A DNA stretch of 64,000 nucleotides from Thiomicrorhabdus sp. Its GTDB lineage: Bacteria > Pseudomonadota > Gammaproteobacteria > Thiomicrospirales > Thiomicrospiraceae. The translations under genes and the position numbers were made by a program. Under the pieces are notes generated by a model. That model saw only the letters and a program-made list of their open reading frames with translations, did no database searches and had not been told where the DNA came from. Within the stretch, counting starts at the first letter, position 1. Each line of letters starts with the position of its first letter. This document shows positions 47,968 through 55,917 of this stretch, one piece after another. Where the stretch lies: the NCBI RefSeq assembly GCF_963677875.1, contig NZ_OY782565.1, positions 62,001-126,000 of the forward strand, read 5' to 3'.

Positions 47968-48867
47968 CTATAAGGCGTAACGGATTCCAAGATACAGCGC
48001 ATGACTGTCCAGACTCAGATCGGTTTTCGGAATGGCGTAATTCATTCCGCTCAAATCAAGAGTAAATTTCTGCAGGTGCAAACGGCTGTATTGAATTCCG
48101 AAATCAAACCCTAAACTCGGTTCGACATCAAACATTCCCAGTGAACCGCTTCTTTTTAGCCATTGATAACGAATACCGAGCGCATAATGAAAATAATCGC
48201 CATCGATATCCAACCGGTAATCCAGCGTTTTATTACGGATCGACAATTGTTGTGGCGTATAGCTGATTTCACCATACACTGTCGCCCGTTCGCCGAGTGC
48301 TCTGGACAGCAATAACTTCGGCCCAAGCTTATAACCGAGCAATTCGGTTCGACTGGCGACCAGATTCACCTCAACGGAATCGCCGTTCGGCACCGAGACC
48401 GGCATCCCCTGATTAGGTTGCCATCCCGCAGAAGGAACATCCATTCCGGCATTTTCAATCACCGGAGCAGCAACGCCAAGCGAAACACCCAAAGCAATGT
48501 AGTCGCGTTCACTCCAGCGAAACAAGTCATAACCCAGCGTCGCCTGAGCATCAATCCCGCTCCATTCGAATTCCGCACCGAGAATATTCATCTCACCGCC
48601 TTGCGGGCTTTTCACCGTCACCGACTTTTGCAAACCGGTCGTCGGTGTCAAATAGGCGACTGAATAATCGTAGAACAGCCGCCCGGAACGAATCGAAGTA
48701 TGCTCCGTCTTATAATTCAGCCATTCACCGTAGGATTGGATACCGCCCTGCAATCCAAGCAAACCACCCTGCAATTTCATGCCGGCATTACCAATCAAAA
48801 CCTGGGAAGCCGACACTGCATCACTGAGCATCAACAATGCAATCAGACACAGTCCGCGCCAATGCAT
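47968..48867 (-). CDS. Putative outer-membrane beta-barrel protein
   Basis: A 299-residue protein with a signal peptide (about 1-20, DAVSASQ). It has many alternating amphipathic strands with aromatic ends and terminates in LYLGIRYAL. I do not recognise a named family. The pattern fits a small barrel of the outer membrane with no catalytic motif. It is divergent from metH, with a 152-base shared upstream region. Confidence 0.55.
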   Translation of the reverse strand: MHWRGLCLIALLMLSDAVSASQVLIGNAGMKLQGGLLGLQGGIQSYGEWLNYKTEHTSIRSGRLFYDYSVAYLTPTTGLQKSVTVKSPQGGEMNILGAEFEWSGIDAQATLGYDLFRWSERDYIALGVSLGVAAPVIENAGMDVPSAGWQPNQGMPVSVPNGDSVEVNLVASRTELLGYKLGPKLLLSRALGERATVYGEISYTPQQLSIRNKTLDYRLDIDGDYFHYALGIRYQWLKRSGSLGMFDVEPSLGFDFGIQYSRLHLQKFTLDLSGMNYAIPKTDLSLDSHALYLGIRYAL

Positions 48868-49019
48868 AACATTTCCTTATCTATGCATAAGCAATTAATT
48901 ATATACCTTATCGAGCCATGCTGTCTCGGCAAATGGCAAATTCATCCCTTAACCTGCCCGACTAAAGACGTCAACTTTTAAATCAGGTAGAATAGCGCGA
49001 TTAAATTTTTGATACAGGT

Positions 49020-52000
49020 ATGGCCATGACAGCACGTCAACAACGTTTAACCGCCCTCAAATCACTGCTGAACGAACGCACCGTCATTCTCGACGGTGCG
49101 ATGGGAACCATGATTCAAGGGCTGAATCTCAGCGAAGAAGACTTTCGAGGAGAGCGTTTTGCCGACTATCACATGGACATCAAGGGCAACAACGACATTC
49201 TGGCGATGACCAAACCGGAAGTGATTCGAGATATTCACCTGGCGTTCCTGCGCAAGGGTGTCGATATTATCGAAACCAACTCCTTTAACGCCACCACCAT
49301 TGCCCAGGCCGACTACGACATGCAGGGACACGTCAGCGAGCTGAACCTGGCCTGCGCCAAAGTCGCACGCGAGGCTTGTGATATTGCCGAGCAGGAAGAC
49401 GGCAAACCGCGTTTTGTTGCCGGTGTGCTTGGGCCGACAAACCGTACTGCGTCGATTTCACCTGACGTCAACGACCCGGGCTTCCGTAATACTTCGTTTG
49501 ATGAATTGGTGACCGCTTACAAACAAGCAACTCACGCTCTGTTGGAAGGTGGCGTGGATACCATTCTGATTGAAACCATTTTCGATACCCTGAATGCGAA
49601 AGCGGCAATCTTCGCGGTCAAAGAAGTCGAGCAAGAACTACGCGAAGCGTGGAATAAACGGAAAGATGAATATTTCGCTCAGAACGCGACGGCAGTCGAA
49701 GTAGTAGCGGAGTTAACTGAAGTTAATGAGCAGCGCAGTGAGGCTGCCAACAAAGTGCTGAGTGAAATAGGCGCTTTCCCAGAAGTTCCGATTATGTTGA
49801 GCGGTACCATTACGGATGCATCCGGTCGAACCCTTTCCGGTCAAACCACCGAAGCTTTCTATAACGCCGTAGCGCATGCCGAGCCACTGTCGGTCGGTCT
49901 GAACTGCGCCTTGGGGCCGGAAGAGCTGCGCCCTTATGTGCAGGAACTCAGCCGCGTTTGCGAAACCTATGTGTCGATTCACCCGAATGCCGGCCTGCCG
50001 AACGAATTCGGTGAATACGACGAAACGCCGGAACAGATGGCCGCAGAAATCGCCCATTGGGCGGAACACGGCTGGATCAATATTATCGGCGGTTGTTGCG
50101 GAACCACGCCGGATCACGTCGAAGCCATGGCGCAAGCCGCTCTGGCACATCCGCGCCGCCAGCTTCCCGAAGTGAAACCGGCCTGTCGCCTGTCCGGTCT
50201 GGAACCGCTAAACATCGATGAAAGCACACTGTTCGTTAACGTTGGTGAACGTAATAACGTTACCGGGTCGGCCAAATTCAAACGCTTGATTATCGAAGAG
50301 AACTACGAAGAAGCCATCGAAATCGCCGTTAAGCAGGTGGAAGACGGCGCGCAGATTATCGACGTCAATATGGACGAAGGGATGCTGGACGCCAAGGCGT
50401 GCATGGTCAAGTTCCTTAATCTTTTGGCTTCCGAGCCGGAAGCGTCGCGCGTGCCGATTATGATCGACTCCTCTAAATGGGACGTCATCGAAGCCGGTCT
50501 GAAATGTATTCAAGGTAAAGGAGTGGTCAACTCCATCTCGCTGAAAGAGGGCGAAGAAGCCTTTATTGAACACGCTCGCAAAGTGAAACAATACGGTGCG
50601 GCAACCATTGTTATGGCCTTCGACGAAGACGGCCAGGCGGATACCCTTGAACGCAAAATCGAAATCTGTAAACGCTCTTATGAAGTGTTGACCGAAAAGG
50701 TCGGATTTTTACCGCAAGACATTATTTTCGACCCGAATATCTTCGCGGTGGCGACCGGTATTGAAGAACACAATAACTACGGTCTGGACTTTATCAATGC
50801 GGTCACGTGGATTAAAGCCAACCTGCCGCACGCCAAGATTTCCGGCGGTGTCTCTAACGTCTCCTTCTCGTTCCGTGGTAACAATCCGGTGCGTGAAGCG
50901 ATTCACTCGGTATTCCTGTACTACGCGATTCAAGAAGGCATGGACATGGGGATCGTTAACGCCGGGCAAATGGCGATTTACGATGACCTGCCGGAGAAAC
51001 TACGTTTAGCCGTAGAAGACGTTATTTTGAATAAAGACCCGGATGCGGGTGAACGCTTGCTGGAAGTCGCCGAAGAGTTCCGTGGCGACGGTTCTGCGGC
51101 CGGTAAAGTGGCCGATACCGCGTGGCGTGAAACGAGCGTTGAAAAGCGTCTTGAACACGCACTGGTCAAAGGAATTACCGACTTTATCGAAGAAGACACC
51201 GAAGAAGCCTACCAAAAACTGGGCTCGGGCCTGTCGGTGATCGAAGGCCCGCTGATGGACGGCATGAACGTGGTCGGCGATCTGTTCGGCTCCGGGAAAA
51301 TGTTCCTGCCGCAGGTAGTGAAATCGGCGCGCGTTATGAAGCGCGCGGTCGCCTATCTTGACCCTTATCTGCTGGCGGCGAAAACCGAAGGTCAGCAGCA
51401 AGGAAAAATCGTTATGGCGACCGTTAAGGGCGACGTCCACGATATCGGTAAAAACATCGTCGGCGTAGTGCTGCAATGTAATAACTTCGAGGTTATCGAC
51501 CTTGGCGTTATGGTGCCTGCCGAGAAAATTCTGGATACGGCGGTGGCCGAAGGCGCGAACGTCATTGGTCTGTCTGGTCTGATTACCCCGTCGCTGGAAG
51601 AGATGGTCAATGTTGCCAAACTGATGAAAGAGCGCGGCATGGACTTGCCATTGCTGATTGGTGGCGCAACCACTTCAAAAGCACATACCGCAGTGAAAAT
51701 CGAACCGCAATACGACCATCCGGTGGTTTACGTTAAGGATGCTTCGCGTGCGGTCGGTGTCGCGCAAAGTCTGATTTCCAACGACCTGAAAGCCGATTTC
51801 GCCGCGAAGATTCGTGCCGAATACGAAACCGTGCGTGAAGAGCGTAAAGCGCGCGCCAAGCAGGTGAAACGTGTGCCGATTAATAAGGCGCGTGAAAACC
51901 GCATCGAGATCGACTGGAACGGTTATCAGCCGGTGAAACCCAGCTTCCTGGGTTCACGTGTCATTGAAGCCTTCCCGCTGGAAAAATTGCTGGAGCGTTT

Positions 52001-52865
52001 TGACTGGTCGCCGTTTTTCCAATCGTGGGAACTGCACGGTCTCTTCCCGCGTATTCTGGACGACAAGGTGGTCGGTGAAGAAGCGCGTAAGGTGTATGCC
52101 GATGCGAAAGAAATGCTGGAAAAAATCATTGCCGAGAAATGGTTGACTGCCAAAGCGGTGTACGGTTTCTATCCAGCGAATGCAATCGGTGATGATATTG
52201 AAATCTATACCGACGAGTCGCGCACCGAAGTATTGACCGTGCTACACAATCTTCGTCAACAGGCGGAGAAAAAACGCGGCGGTTACAACCAGTGTCTATC
52301 CGACTATATTGCTCCAAAAGAAACGGGGATTGCTGACTATGTCGGTCTATTCGCGGTTTCCGGCGGGATCGGCTGTGATGAAAAAGCGGCGGAGTTTGAA
52401 GCCGAGCATAACGACTATGAAGCGATTATGTTGAAAGCATTAGCGGATCGTTTTGCCGAAGCCTTTGCCGAGACCCTGCATGAAATGGTACGTAAAGAAG
52501 AATGGGGCTATGCACCGGATGAAGACTTGGACAACGAAGCCCTGATTCGCGAGAAATACCAAGGCATCCGCCCAGCACCAGGTTACCCTGCGTGCCCGGA
52601 ACACACCGAAAAAGGTACTATCTGGGAACTGCTAAAACCGGATACAGAAATCGGTTTAGAGCTGACTTCAAGCTACGCCATGACTCCGACCGCCGCGGTT
52701 TCCGGAGTTTACTTCTCACATCCGGAATCAAAATACTTCGGTATCGGCTCGGTCGGTCGCGACCAGGTCGAAGACTACGCCCACCGAAAAGGCTGGTCAA
52801 TCGAAGAAACCGAGAAATGGCTGGCTCCGAATCTGGGTTACGATCCGGAAGATTTTGCGCAGTAA
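49020..52865 (+). CDS. metH: Cobalamin-dependent methionine synthase
   Basis: A 1281-residue four-module enzyme that methylates homocysteine from 5-methyl-THF. The homocysteine module holds DGAMGTMIQ and the zinc motif [10 protein letters not shown]. The pterin module has [17 protein letters not shown], and the B12 module has [15 protein letters not shown] with the axial histidine. The activation module has [15 protein letters not shown] and ends EDFAQ. It is about 54 residues longer than the E. coli enzyme, mostly through an insertion of about 45 residues (about 207-250) between AIFAVK and VPIMLSGT. The ATG at 49020 is followed two codons later by another ATG. I see no cobalamin riboswitch in the 152 bases upstream. 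Confidence 0.97.
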
Positions 52866-52907
52866 TCAGCCTTAAACAAAATTCAGATGAAAACGCAGGT
52901 TGGAAAA

Positions 52908-53654
52908 ATGGTAGATTTGTTTGAAGGCAACGGATCAAACTACGCCGCTTACCGACCTGCCTATCCCAAAGAATTGGGAGAAGCCCTTTCCCAGCTATGC
53001 AGTCGTCATCAAACAGCACTCGACGTTGGCTGCGGAACAGGTCAGCTCACCAGCCTGCTAAGCAAACATTTCACTTCCGTTATCGGAACTGACACCAGCA
53101 AGAGCCAACTGGAATTTGCGCAAACCGCCGACAACATCCGTTACCTCAATGAACCCGCCGAACAAACCAGTTTAGAGAACGCCTCCGTTGACCTGATTGT
53201 CGTCGCACAAGCTGCCCACTGGTTTAACTTGGAAGCCTTTTATCAAGAAGTTAAAAGGATCGCATCGCCTGATGCCGTAATCGCCCTGATCAGCTATGGC
53301 GTTCCTTATATCGAGGCCAGCGTCAATTCTGTTTTTCAACAGAGGTACTGGCAGCAAGTTCACAAATACTGGCCGGATGAACGAAAACACGTGGAAAACG
53401 GATACATTGAACTGGCATTTCCATTTGAGGAAATCGACTTTCCCGAAACCTTTATCCATAAAGAAATGAACTTCGACGAATTCATTGGCTATATCCGCAC
53501 TTGGAGCGCCTATAAAAAAGCGCAAGAATTACAGGAAACAGCTATCTTTAATTCATTCTTTGAACAACTGGAAAAATCTTGGGGCGATAAGGCGAGAAAC
53601 TATCAAGTCACTTGGCCGATTTCAGTTAGAGTGGGTAAAGTAATTAACTATTGA
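52908..53654 (+). CDS. Class I SAM-dependent methyltransferase
   Basis: A protein of about 248 residues. Motif I is ALDVGCGTGQLTSLLS, followed by VIGTDTSKSQLEFAQ and VDLIVVAQAAHWFN. The pattern resembles trans-aconitate-type and related small-molecule methyltransferases, but the substrate is unknown. I prefer the ATG at 52908, which has GGA upstream and begins MVDLFEGNGSNYAAYRP; an ATG at 52887 would add 7 residues. It starts about 40 bases after metH and is followed by a decayed copy of the metH 3' end. That placement suggests it arrived with that duplication. Confidence 0.85.
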   Translation: MVDLFEGNGSNYAAYRPAYPKELGEALSQLCSRHQTALDVGCGTGQLTSLLSKHFTSVIGTDTSKSQLEFAQTADNIRYLNEPAEQTSLENASVDLIVVAQAAHWFNLEAFYQEVKRIASPDAVIALISYGVPYIEASVNSVFQQRYWQQVHKYWPDERKHVENGYIELAFPFEEIDFPETFIHKEMNFDEFIGYIRTWSAYKKAQELQETAIFNSFFEQLEKSWGDKARNYQVTWPISVRVGKVINY

Positions 53655-53660
53655 TTGATT

Positions 53661-53771
53661 AATCCCGACCGGATCAAAGACGATGTTCACCATAAAGGTT
53701 TGACCGTAGAAGAAACCGAGAAGAGGTTAGCTACGAATCGAAGTTACTATCCGGAAAACTTTGTGCAGTAA
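53661..53771 (+). pseudogene. Decayed copy of the metH 3' end
   Basis: Read in frame, these 111 bases encode 36 residues and a stop that align without gaps to the last 36 residues of metH (52755-52865). I count 18 identical residues, including HxKG, EETEK, LA and PE followed by FxQ. Both copies end in CAG TAA. There is no start codon or upstream metH sequence, so only the tail is present. The methyltransferase gene lies between the intact and decayed tails. Confidence 0.8.
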
Positions 53772-54003
53772 TTTACTGTTTTTCAGGGTGAAGCTATTTA
53801 ACTTTACTTTGCCGAATGTTCCTCCAATGGACTTCCCTCTTACCTTTTCTCGACTCTTTAGCCGAGTTCGATGTTTGTTATTCAGCAAAACCACAAAGGG
53901 CAGATTCCCTTGATTTCAGGAATGGTTTCGCCAAATATTTTCAGACCTTACATCAATTCGAATAGCGAGCATCCAGGCGGCATAGAGTACCGCCCGATCT
54001 TAA
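53772..54003. other. Unassigned 232-base region
   Basis: I find no convincing gene here. A 49-codon plus-strand frame (53816-53965, MFLQWTSLLPF...) has no ribosome site. An overlapping minus-strand frame reads NLPFVVLLNNKHRTRLKSRE without a good start. The stretch could be remnant mobile or accessory DNA that accompanied the metH tail copy. Confidence 0.3.
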
Positions 54004-54567
54004 TCAATAGTTCAGTAACAAATCCACCAAAGTTAGGATGACAAACGTTTTTGGGTCGTATACGACGACATAACCTTGGTAATAGCCGATTGAATAACCG
54101 GCTGGAACGTGCGGTATACGTTTTTTCAGAGAATTGGGCGCAGGGGTAATATAAGGTCGGTATTTGACCGGAATTGACCGCGACTGGGTAAACTGTGGTC
54201 GATGTTGACGGTTTACTTTTCCAAGAATTTTCTGGTAATGCTGATGCATTACTTGTTTATTCCGTGAATTAACGGAGTAAGAAGGGACGGATTTGTTACC
54301 GGATTTCGACGAGCCGTGATGGCTTTGATTCATGCCTTGGGGCTTACTTCGATTTTGCTGCTCCTGTTTGCTGGAATTGAATTGCGCTGAAGAGCCTTTG
54401 CTGTCTTTATGATGCCCCGGATTTTTTTGGTTATTCGGCTGCCCTTTATGCCCGTGATCTTTTGAAAACCCCGGTTGCTCTTGCCCGTGCTGAGGCGGTG
54501 CGGCGTATACGGAATTGACACTTAATCCACAAATTAAAACGCTTGCGGCCAATAATGATTTTTTCAT
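54004..54567 (-). CDS. Secreted RcnB/CigR-like protein
   Basis: A 187-residue protein with a signal peptide (about 1-22, NSVYAAPP). A low-complexity region rich in His, Gln, Ser and Lys (about 25-100) follows, and then a C-terminal RcnB-like segment (HVPAGYSIGYYQGYVVVYD, then VILTLVDLLLNY). RcnB is a periplasmic protein linked to Ni/Co homeostasis, and CigR is a related envelope regulator. No metal efflux gene is adjacent, so the role here is not set. The 199 bases upstream should contain its promoter; I see no clear boxes. Confidence 0.7.
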   Translation of the reverse strand: MKKSLLAASVLICGLSVNSVYAAPPQHGQEQPGFSKDHGHKGQPNNQKNPGHHKDSKGSSAQFNSSKQEQQNRSKPQGMNQSHHGSSKSGNKSVPSYSVNSRNKQVMHQHYQKILGKVNRQHRPQFTQSRSIPVKYRPYITPAPNSLKKRIPHVPAGYSIGYYQGYVVVYDPKTFVILTLVDLLLNY

Positions 54568-54766
54568 AGCGATTGTCCTTCAGGTTGAGAATATTCATAT
54601 GAATGAGCGGCCGTCTCAGTCGATATCTGACCGGTTACCGATCATGGAACTGAATTTACTCTATCATAAGAATGGGATGAAAATAATTGATCAAATATTA
54701 AGCAACTAAGCAACAATCGAATTAATCAATACCCGGTATCAGAGGGAAATAACCTTCTATTCACCT

Positions 54767-55195
54767 TTAATTTTTATTGGATTCGGAATTCGGTCGGCCT
54801 TTTTTCTCATCTGCCATTTTTCGTTGCCTGAACAGGTACAGTTGTTCGATTTTCTCTCGAGCCCACTCGGTTTTGCGCAGAAACGTCAGGCTCGACTTTA
54901 TCGATGGATTGTTCTGGAAACAGTTCATCCGCGTTTGCTCAAACAACCCTTCCCAGCCATAGTATTCCTGCAATTCAGTGACAATGGTTTTCAACGTAAT
55001 GCCGTGCAACGGGTTATTGCGCTGAGTCGAACGACGTTCGAATTTCGGCTTTGATGCAGCTTCCGATCTGGGTTTGGATGTTTGCTTTGCAGGCTGTTTG
55101 GCTTTCATCACCCTCACTTTTACTTTCGATGCCGAGTCCGACTGACGATTCAGTTTAAGGGTCTTGGGCTTTTCTGAAACCGTTTTTTCAACCAT
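54767..55195 (-). CDS. VF530 family DNA-binding protein
   Basis: A 142-residue protein. The C-terminal 75 residues match the VF530 (DUF2132) fold: [20 protein letters not shown], then [20 protein letters not shown] and [10 protein letters not shown]. The N-terminal half is a basic, Lys/Ser-rich extension (about residues 1-70) not typical of the short family core. The ATG at 55195 has AGGAAAA upstream and overlaps the yaeQ stop, so translation is coupled. Family members have been proposed to bind DNA. Confidence 0.82.
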
Positions 55196-55733
55196 GGGCT
55201 TTTTCCTGCAAAACGTTCCAATGCACTTCGCACTCACCTTTTGCCGTCGCAATATACGCCGAGTTGCCGCTCAGGGTGACGGAGAAATCCATCGTGCGTT
55301 CCAACATCCCCGCAAGGGTTTGAATTTCATTCCAGTCAAAACGGTAAATATCGGCGTCCAGACGATTAAATTCCGCTTCGCCCTGCGCCCACCAAACATC
55401 CGATTTACTATTAAAGCTGTAAACTTTCGTCTGCTGCGCCTTTCGAGTAGCTTTTTTAATGCGATCCACTGCCGGTTCGCCGACATCAATCCACAGTGCC
55501 AACTGGTCATCTAACGTCGTCACGGAAATCGCCGGATCATCCACTTCACTGAGTCCTGCGCCAAAATCCAATTGTGCTTGGGCATTGATGCAATAGGCCA
55601 ATAAGCGCGTCATCATGCGCTCGTCGTTTTCCGACGGATGCTTGGCAAGCGTGAGATTCAAAGCGTCGAAATGAGATCGGTTCAGGTCGGATAAGGAAAT
55701 TTTAAATTTATAAACTGTCGGTTTTAACGCCAC
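55188..55733 (-). CDS. yaeQ: YaeQ family protein
   Basis: A 181-residue protein of the YaeQ family, which has a PD-(D/E)XK nuclease-like fold of unknown cellular role. The start is GTG at 55733 with AAAGGG upstream, giving the canonical beginning ALKPTVYKF and the exact length of the E. coli protein. Further signatures are [17 protein letters not shown] and [16 protein letters not shown]. It overlaps the VF530 gene by 8 bases. Confidence 0.92.
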
Positions 55734-55917
55734 TGGATGCCCTTTAAGATAAAAACAGAAAAAATTCAGCGCCGATATCATGCCATAAATAACGATAACA
55801 TTCGGCAAACACGCTTCACCCGAAGCGTATCACTCTGGATGGCATTATCGATCTTGGACGGAAAATCGGCGGTAAAATGTAGCTTGCAAATCCCGCTTCT
55901 GAAAAGGATTCTTGACA

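Follow-up and report, generated by a model that had tools for sequence, protein, structure and literature searches.

In Escherichia coli K-12, the prophage e14, an element of about 15 kb with its own integrase, is inserted in icd, and the icd end stranded by it measures 163–165 bp (PMC6379469, PMC11148124); excerpts of these sources describe it as a 165-bp icdC remnant with 12 differences (PMC11148124; also PMC6379469). Capture of DNA by other means is described in an excerpt of PMC3240628: homology-facilitated illegitimate recombination (HFIR) combines one homologous crossover with one non-homologous joint and inserts about 1 kb on average, and single crossovers with circularised fragments left partial duplications of 109–950 bp in 14 sequenced E. 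coli clones. At chromosomal defence hotspots, as outlined in part of PMC5398294, differing defence-type genes swap between conserved neighbours.

Small toxin-antitoxin and defence genes sit at recombinase-free chromosomal hotspots, and the route by which they arrive is usually guessed. Here, we describe a second, decayed tail of the methionine synthase gene metH in a window from a marine Thiomicrorhabdus, the window being the whole stretch of 64,000 nucleotides that was analysed. Going by the metH end, the nearest named records belong to Thiomicrorhabdus, a genus of sulfur oxidisers. The second tail is real and is explained in outline, and a readable insertion scar found three times at one gene makes the mechanism testable.

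A second metH tail in the window

The first-pass annotation had claimed that bases 53661–53771 align with the last 111 bases of metH, with half of the residues identical and the same stop. Comparison of 52755–52865 with 53661–53771 confirmed this: without gaps, 81 of the 111 nucleotides are identical and the stop is shared, and in translation 19 of 37 positions agree, the stop counted (Table 1). The significance of the alignment was also upheld. Across all plus-strand positions of the 64-kb window, matches to the metH end average 27.8 (sd 4.8), and the next best reaches 52/111 on the plus strand and 49/111 on the minus strand. A search of the window's whole genome with the metH end returned two places only, the second with an E value of 1.9e-13 and a BLAST start at 53663, and no third copy. 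Homology ends on both sides of the tails, where adjacent 20-nt blocks agree at 5–8 positions upstream and at 2–6 downstream. Identity between the tails is 25/37, 29/37 and 27/37 at codon positions 1, 2 and 3, respectively; because the changes are not enriched at third positions, the second tail seems not to be under coding constraint, as in neutral decay. It ends 906 nt past the metH stop. No tRNA genes were found in the window, and no Rfam families at 48800–55000.

Table 1. Features around the metH 3′ end, in window coordinates.
Feature	Position	Strand	Remarks
metH, complete methionine synthase gene	49020..52865	+	ORF of 1281 aa; five MetH-type Pfam domains
First tail: intact metH 3′ end, presumed incoming copy	52755..52865	+	81/111 identical to 53661-53771
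Cargo: class I SAM-dependent methyltransferase, 255 aa	52887..53654	+	Methyltransf_11, E 1e-17
Right junction, cargo stop to second tail	53655..53660		6 nt (8 by BLAST start)
Second, decayed metH tail, presumed displaced original end	53661..53771	+	81/111, ungapped, same stop; E 1.9e-13
Right flank past the second tail, without annotated gene	53772..54003		
Hypothetical protein, 187 aa	54004..54567	-	family F35; no Pfam or NCBIfam match
VF530-type DNA-binding protein and YaeQ genes	54767..55808	-	VF530 E 2.8e-33; YaeQ E 1.5e-61

The gene between the tails is, as first annotated, a complete methyltransferase gene; translation may in fact begin at an inner ATG, at 52908, since homology to its counterpart in another genome of the genus (G013) sets in about there. 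Among solved structures, the closest relative of the methyltransferase is 4hg2 (E 4.7e-51). The G013 homologue is 80% identical; some 2.8 kb separate it from metH, it follows a gene common to three other genomes, and there is no tail at that place. The window's methyltransferase also matches the PADLOC model mad2 of the MADS defence system at positions 253–401 of 492 and not over the whole of Mad2; because this match is confined to the methyltransferase part of the model, it is no evidence of a role in defence. No terminator-like hairpin was found in the first 100 nt of the right flank after the second tail. Further downstream, the hypothetical protein has a relative in G014 that does not adjoin metH there, and the VF530/YaeQ flank is common to several relatives (family F11 in 8 genomes, family F8 in 9).

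Second tails and variable cargo downstream of metH

The genus set comprised 32 Thiomicrorhabdus genomes including the window's own (G000), and the metH 3′ end was found in 27 of them, one of which (G006) has just the last 75 nt of metH. A protein search found no metH in the other five (G002, G004, G011, G012 and G030), three of which are at least 92% complete. The scan for second tails covered 14 kb downstream of metH in most genomes and 2.6–12.3 kb in seven, where contigs end. Second tails were found in 3 of the 27 genomes (the window's own, G025 and G008), each with different cargo in front, and were not found by the scan in the other 24. The cargo in G025 is a zeta-type toxin kinase gene (Pfam Zeta_toxin, E 2.2e-10) with a small gene that we call its partner, since small ORFs resembling it come after zeta-type genes in G019 and G030 as well; this small gene had no family match in Pfam or NCBIfam searches. 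The cargo in G008 is a PEP-CTERM-like protein. The first-pass annotation had predicted the same locus with other cargo genes between two tails, and both genomes supply exactly that. It had also taken relatives that lack the methyltransferase and yet carry the second tail as evidence against insertion; such relatives exist, yet different cargo lies between their tails, which fits a hotspot and does not refute insertion.

The scars are alike in layout and differ in extent. The second tail of G025 is a 102-nt match with a frameshift near its end and ends about 888 nt past the metH stop, and that of G008 is a 27-nt match with a single mismatch, including an exact stretch of 18 nt, and ends 820 nt past the stop. 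Relative to the stop, the second tails start at about −107 (−109 to −105) in the window, −102 in G025 and −27 in G008. The gap from the cargo stop to the second tail is 6–8, 5 and 8 nt, respectively, and all three inserts consist of one or two genes and are shorter than 0.9 kb. When both tails were aligned with the metH of relatives, the window's second tail matched its own metH tail (81/111) about as well as it matched any other, the best being that of G014 (82/111), and the G025 second tail, over 88 nt, was closer to the metH tails of 7 of 25 other species than to its own. In G025 (L064), the frameshifted second tail shares one open frame with the HEPN-type gene after it (ORF at 778–1419 past the metH stop), which on paper would allow a longer fusion protein. 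Among 80 public-genome loci, which coincide in part with the genus set and perhaps do not include the genome of the window, signal came from the G008 contig only. Weak second-tail signals at two Trabulsiella loci (L154 and L161) were rejected as chance: they agree at 41–44 of 111 positions, are full of stops and lie inside another ORF.

The second tails stand where the flank shared with relatives resumes. Directly after a single metH, G020, G010 and G013 carry a pair of Pfam NTase_sub_bind and nucleotidyltransferase-type proteins, which we take to be a HEPN/MNT pair, and G009 has a remnant of it after metH. In G025, a pair homologous to it comes after the second tail and is preceded by the zeta pair and another metH tail; the arrangement in G020, G010 and G013 is in effect the empty site of the G025 insertion. 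Likewise, the second tail of G008 is followed by a block (F30-F4-F3-F1) that is common to relatives. With the same scar behind other cargo in G025 and G008, and with the G025 tail bordering on HEPN/MNT, the proposal that an insertion displaced the old metH end is well supported. HEPN/MNT pairs also occur away from metH, in polysaccharide-synthesis-like neighbourhoods (L196 in G012, L197 in G030 and L198 in G023).

The metH 3′ end is an insertion hotspot that often accommodates toxin-antitoxin genes or candidates for defence. From species to species, the genes that come first after metH differ greatly: PADLOC or Pfam toxin-antitoxin or defence-type genes stand first in G010, G013, G014, G018, G020, G024 and G025, with the remnant in G009, and ordinary or unknown genes in the remaining genomes (e.g., a lipocalin gene in G021). 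Among the former are PDC-M03AB in G024, a RelA/SpoT-domain PDC-S33 protein in G014 and HEC-01AB in G018, PDC and HEC being PADLOC designations for candidate families whose role in defence is not proven. All nine genomes in which the methyltransferase or toxin-antitoxin or candidate defence cargo comes first (G000, G009, G010, G013, G014, G018, G020, G024 and G025) lack a terminator-like hairpin within 100 nt of metH, and 12 of the 18 others, among which G008 was counted (cargo 183 nt away, hairpin present), have one; this association has a p value of 0.0011 for a grouping chosen after the table was seen. The lack of the hairpin in all nine suggests that such cargo is under read-through from metH.

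Control genes indicate that metH stands out. The 27 genus loci contain 286 genes if metH is counted, and the only ones flagged were the metH genes of the three scarred genomes; 70 further loci with 822 genes, a set that overlaps the genus set (L100–L104), gave four flagged genes (L107, L115, L118 and L145), none of them metH. Comparing 3/27 for metH with 0/896 for other genes, which are not a random genome sample, Fisher's test gave p = 2.2e-5, and 7.7e-4 without the window's case. In 800 kb taken from G025 and G000, 637 control genes showed no true tail duplication, after removal of two flagged frames that lie inside a CRISPR array. One such array, outside the window (L255:15013-19500; G000:C4, about 245–249.5 kb), holds some 60 copies of a 28-nt repeat at 60-nt spacing in the 4.5 kb covered, and its repeat resembles those of type I-F.

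Probable route of insertion and competing explanations

The metH 3′ end is probably a recurrent hotspot that has no recombinase of its own and is entered by one-sided homologous recombination or by crossover of a circularised fragment. A metH 3′ end and the gene following it would arrive on foreign DNA and recombine with the resident metH by homology, presumably through RecA. The other end would then be joined non-homologously into the resident metH about 27–109 nt before its stop, as in HFIR, or the fragment would circularise first and integrate by a single crossover; either route would leave an intact metH, the cargo and the orphaned old metH end. The direction of events, the dependence on RecA, entry as free DNA and the donor are what we infer. 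The structure fits HFIR or single-crossover capture, in which one side would be joined by homology and the other without it.

The 21 Phage_integrase and 4 Resolvase matches in the three scarred genomes all lie away from metH, on other contigs in G000 and G008 and at a distance of at least 160 kb in G025, and there were none near metH in the rest of the genus among the matches listed. The differing break points (about −107, −102 and −27) may speak against a single fixed crossover site, with the proviso that these are three cases, one of them strongly decayed. The gap of 5–8 nt after the cargo stop in all three is not predicted by random joining, and the units could therefore have defined right ends. 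Also counting against the preferred reading, 24 of the 27 genomes have no second tail, and most of these have cargo-like variable genes after metH.

Imported metH ends should look foreign. In a tree of the last 150 nt of metH, G013, G021 and G025 group together (95/96), and the metH sequence upstream places G013 with other species (86/96); the tails of these three genomes are more alike than the 300 nt preceding them. A clade of G013, G021 and G025 is rejected by rpoB (p 2e-69), but the tests on metH trees are borderline (p 0.057, 0.041 and 0.038), for groups chosen after the trees were seen. In the rpoB tree, G008, a metagenome bin with 8% contamination, is oddly placed. The last 65 nt of the window's metH are exactly those of G014, with 81% identity over the 300 nt before the tail, but G014 is also the rpoB sister of the window's genome; the support lent to import is weak. 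The search for a donor with a metH tail and the methyltransferase found none, the only close homologue, in G013, having no metH tail. Mobile carriers of the metH end were not found in viral contigs, and metH-like ends of less than 80% identity occur in 14 phage and 50 plasmid records, several of them annotated as whole metH. DprA is present in all 32 genus genomes and ComEC in 28; the genome of the window itself gave no ComEC (PF03772) match, which argues against present-day uptake of free DNA there.

It is unlikely that these insertions are site-specific, that is, that a tyrosine or serine recombinase uses an att site in the metH 3′ end and that the loci have lost the enzyme or it is encoded elsewhere. 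The outcome is the same as that of e14 in icd (PMC11148124, PMC6379469, in the parts cited), two of the three second tails start within about 7 nt (−109 to −105; −102), and the cargo ends 5–8 nt from the second tail in 3/3; against this stand the start of the G008 tail at −27, inserts of less than 0.9 kb, and 0/25 recombinase matches near metH in the scarred genomes, with none among the genus matches listed. The first-pass annotation had likened the event to elements that integrate at tRNA genes: the likeness holds for the outcome and not for the means, since metH has no recombinase in its vicinity in any of the scarred genomes, and the second tails do not start at one common point. The zeta-type toxin gene of G025 has a homologue in G008:C32 (L214:222-2040) that directly adjoins a phage-type integrase gene, and the zeta module thus also travels with recombinases.

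Distinctly improbable, in our estimate, is that the metH tails themselves serve as a recombinase-free attachment site, the cargo circling out with one tail and re-entering another metH so that units circulate among species. In its favour are the direct repeats on both sides of the cargo in three species, the related HEPN/MNT pairs that recur in one position downstream of metH (in G020, G010 and G013, behind the second tail in G025 and as a remnant in G009), and the greater likeness of the G013, G021 and G025 tails compared with the 300 nt before them. However, neither a circle nor a donor-recipient pair was seen, most cargo-bearing genomes have no second tail, and diverged repeats of 27–111 nt are poor substrates for homologous recombination. 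If this reading were true, the end of a core gene would play the part of an att site for one-gene or toxin-antitoxin units in Thiomicrorhabdus.

The alternative offered by the first-pass annotation, tandem duplication and decay, is very unlikely; it would here mean that the metH end was duplicated long ago and that the cargo came in as a separate insertion. The near-equal identity of the window's second tail to its own tail (81/111) and to the closest other (G014, 82/111) would suit it, but cargo stands before all three second tails, tandem tails without cargo occur in 0/27 genomes, the G025 second tail is closer to the tails of seven other species than to its own, and two rare events would have to coincide three times. 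Chance or convergent similarity of 53661–53771 to the metH end has next to no probability, given 81/111 against a next best of 52/111 and an E value of 1.9e-13.

Comparison with known systems

As with e14 in icd, at least as far as the cited excerpts describe it, a protein gene at metH is kept whole by an incoming 3′ end, and the old end is stranded beyond the insert: the intact gene lies upstream and the displaced end downstream. The use of the 3′ end of a protein gene, which the first-pass annotation had called unusual, accordingly has a well-known precedent in e14 with its 165-bp icdC remnant (PMC11148124, in part). Unlike in e14, the metH insert is one or two genes of less than 0.9 kb, the break point varies, and no recombinase lies in or beside the element. 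Because the insert is far smaller and no recombinase is near, we do not file it as an integrase-type island. By analogy, the metH insertion appears e14-like in outcome and nearer to HFIR or single-crossover capture in means. It shares with the latter, as excerpted from PMC3240628, the capture of about 1 kb and the partial duplication of the homologous locus left behind; those events were laboratory ones, whereas the metH case is a repeated natural pattern at one gene. As at chromosomal defence hotspots, variable defence-type genes lie at metH between conserved flanks, and to this the metH site adds a footprint, the duplicated gene end, in 3 of 27 genomes.
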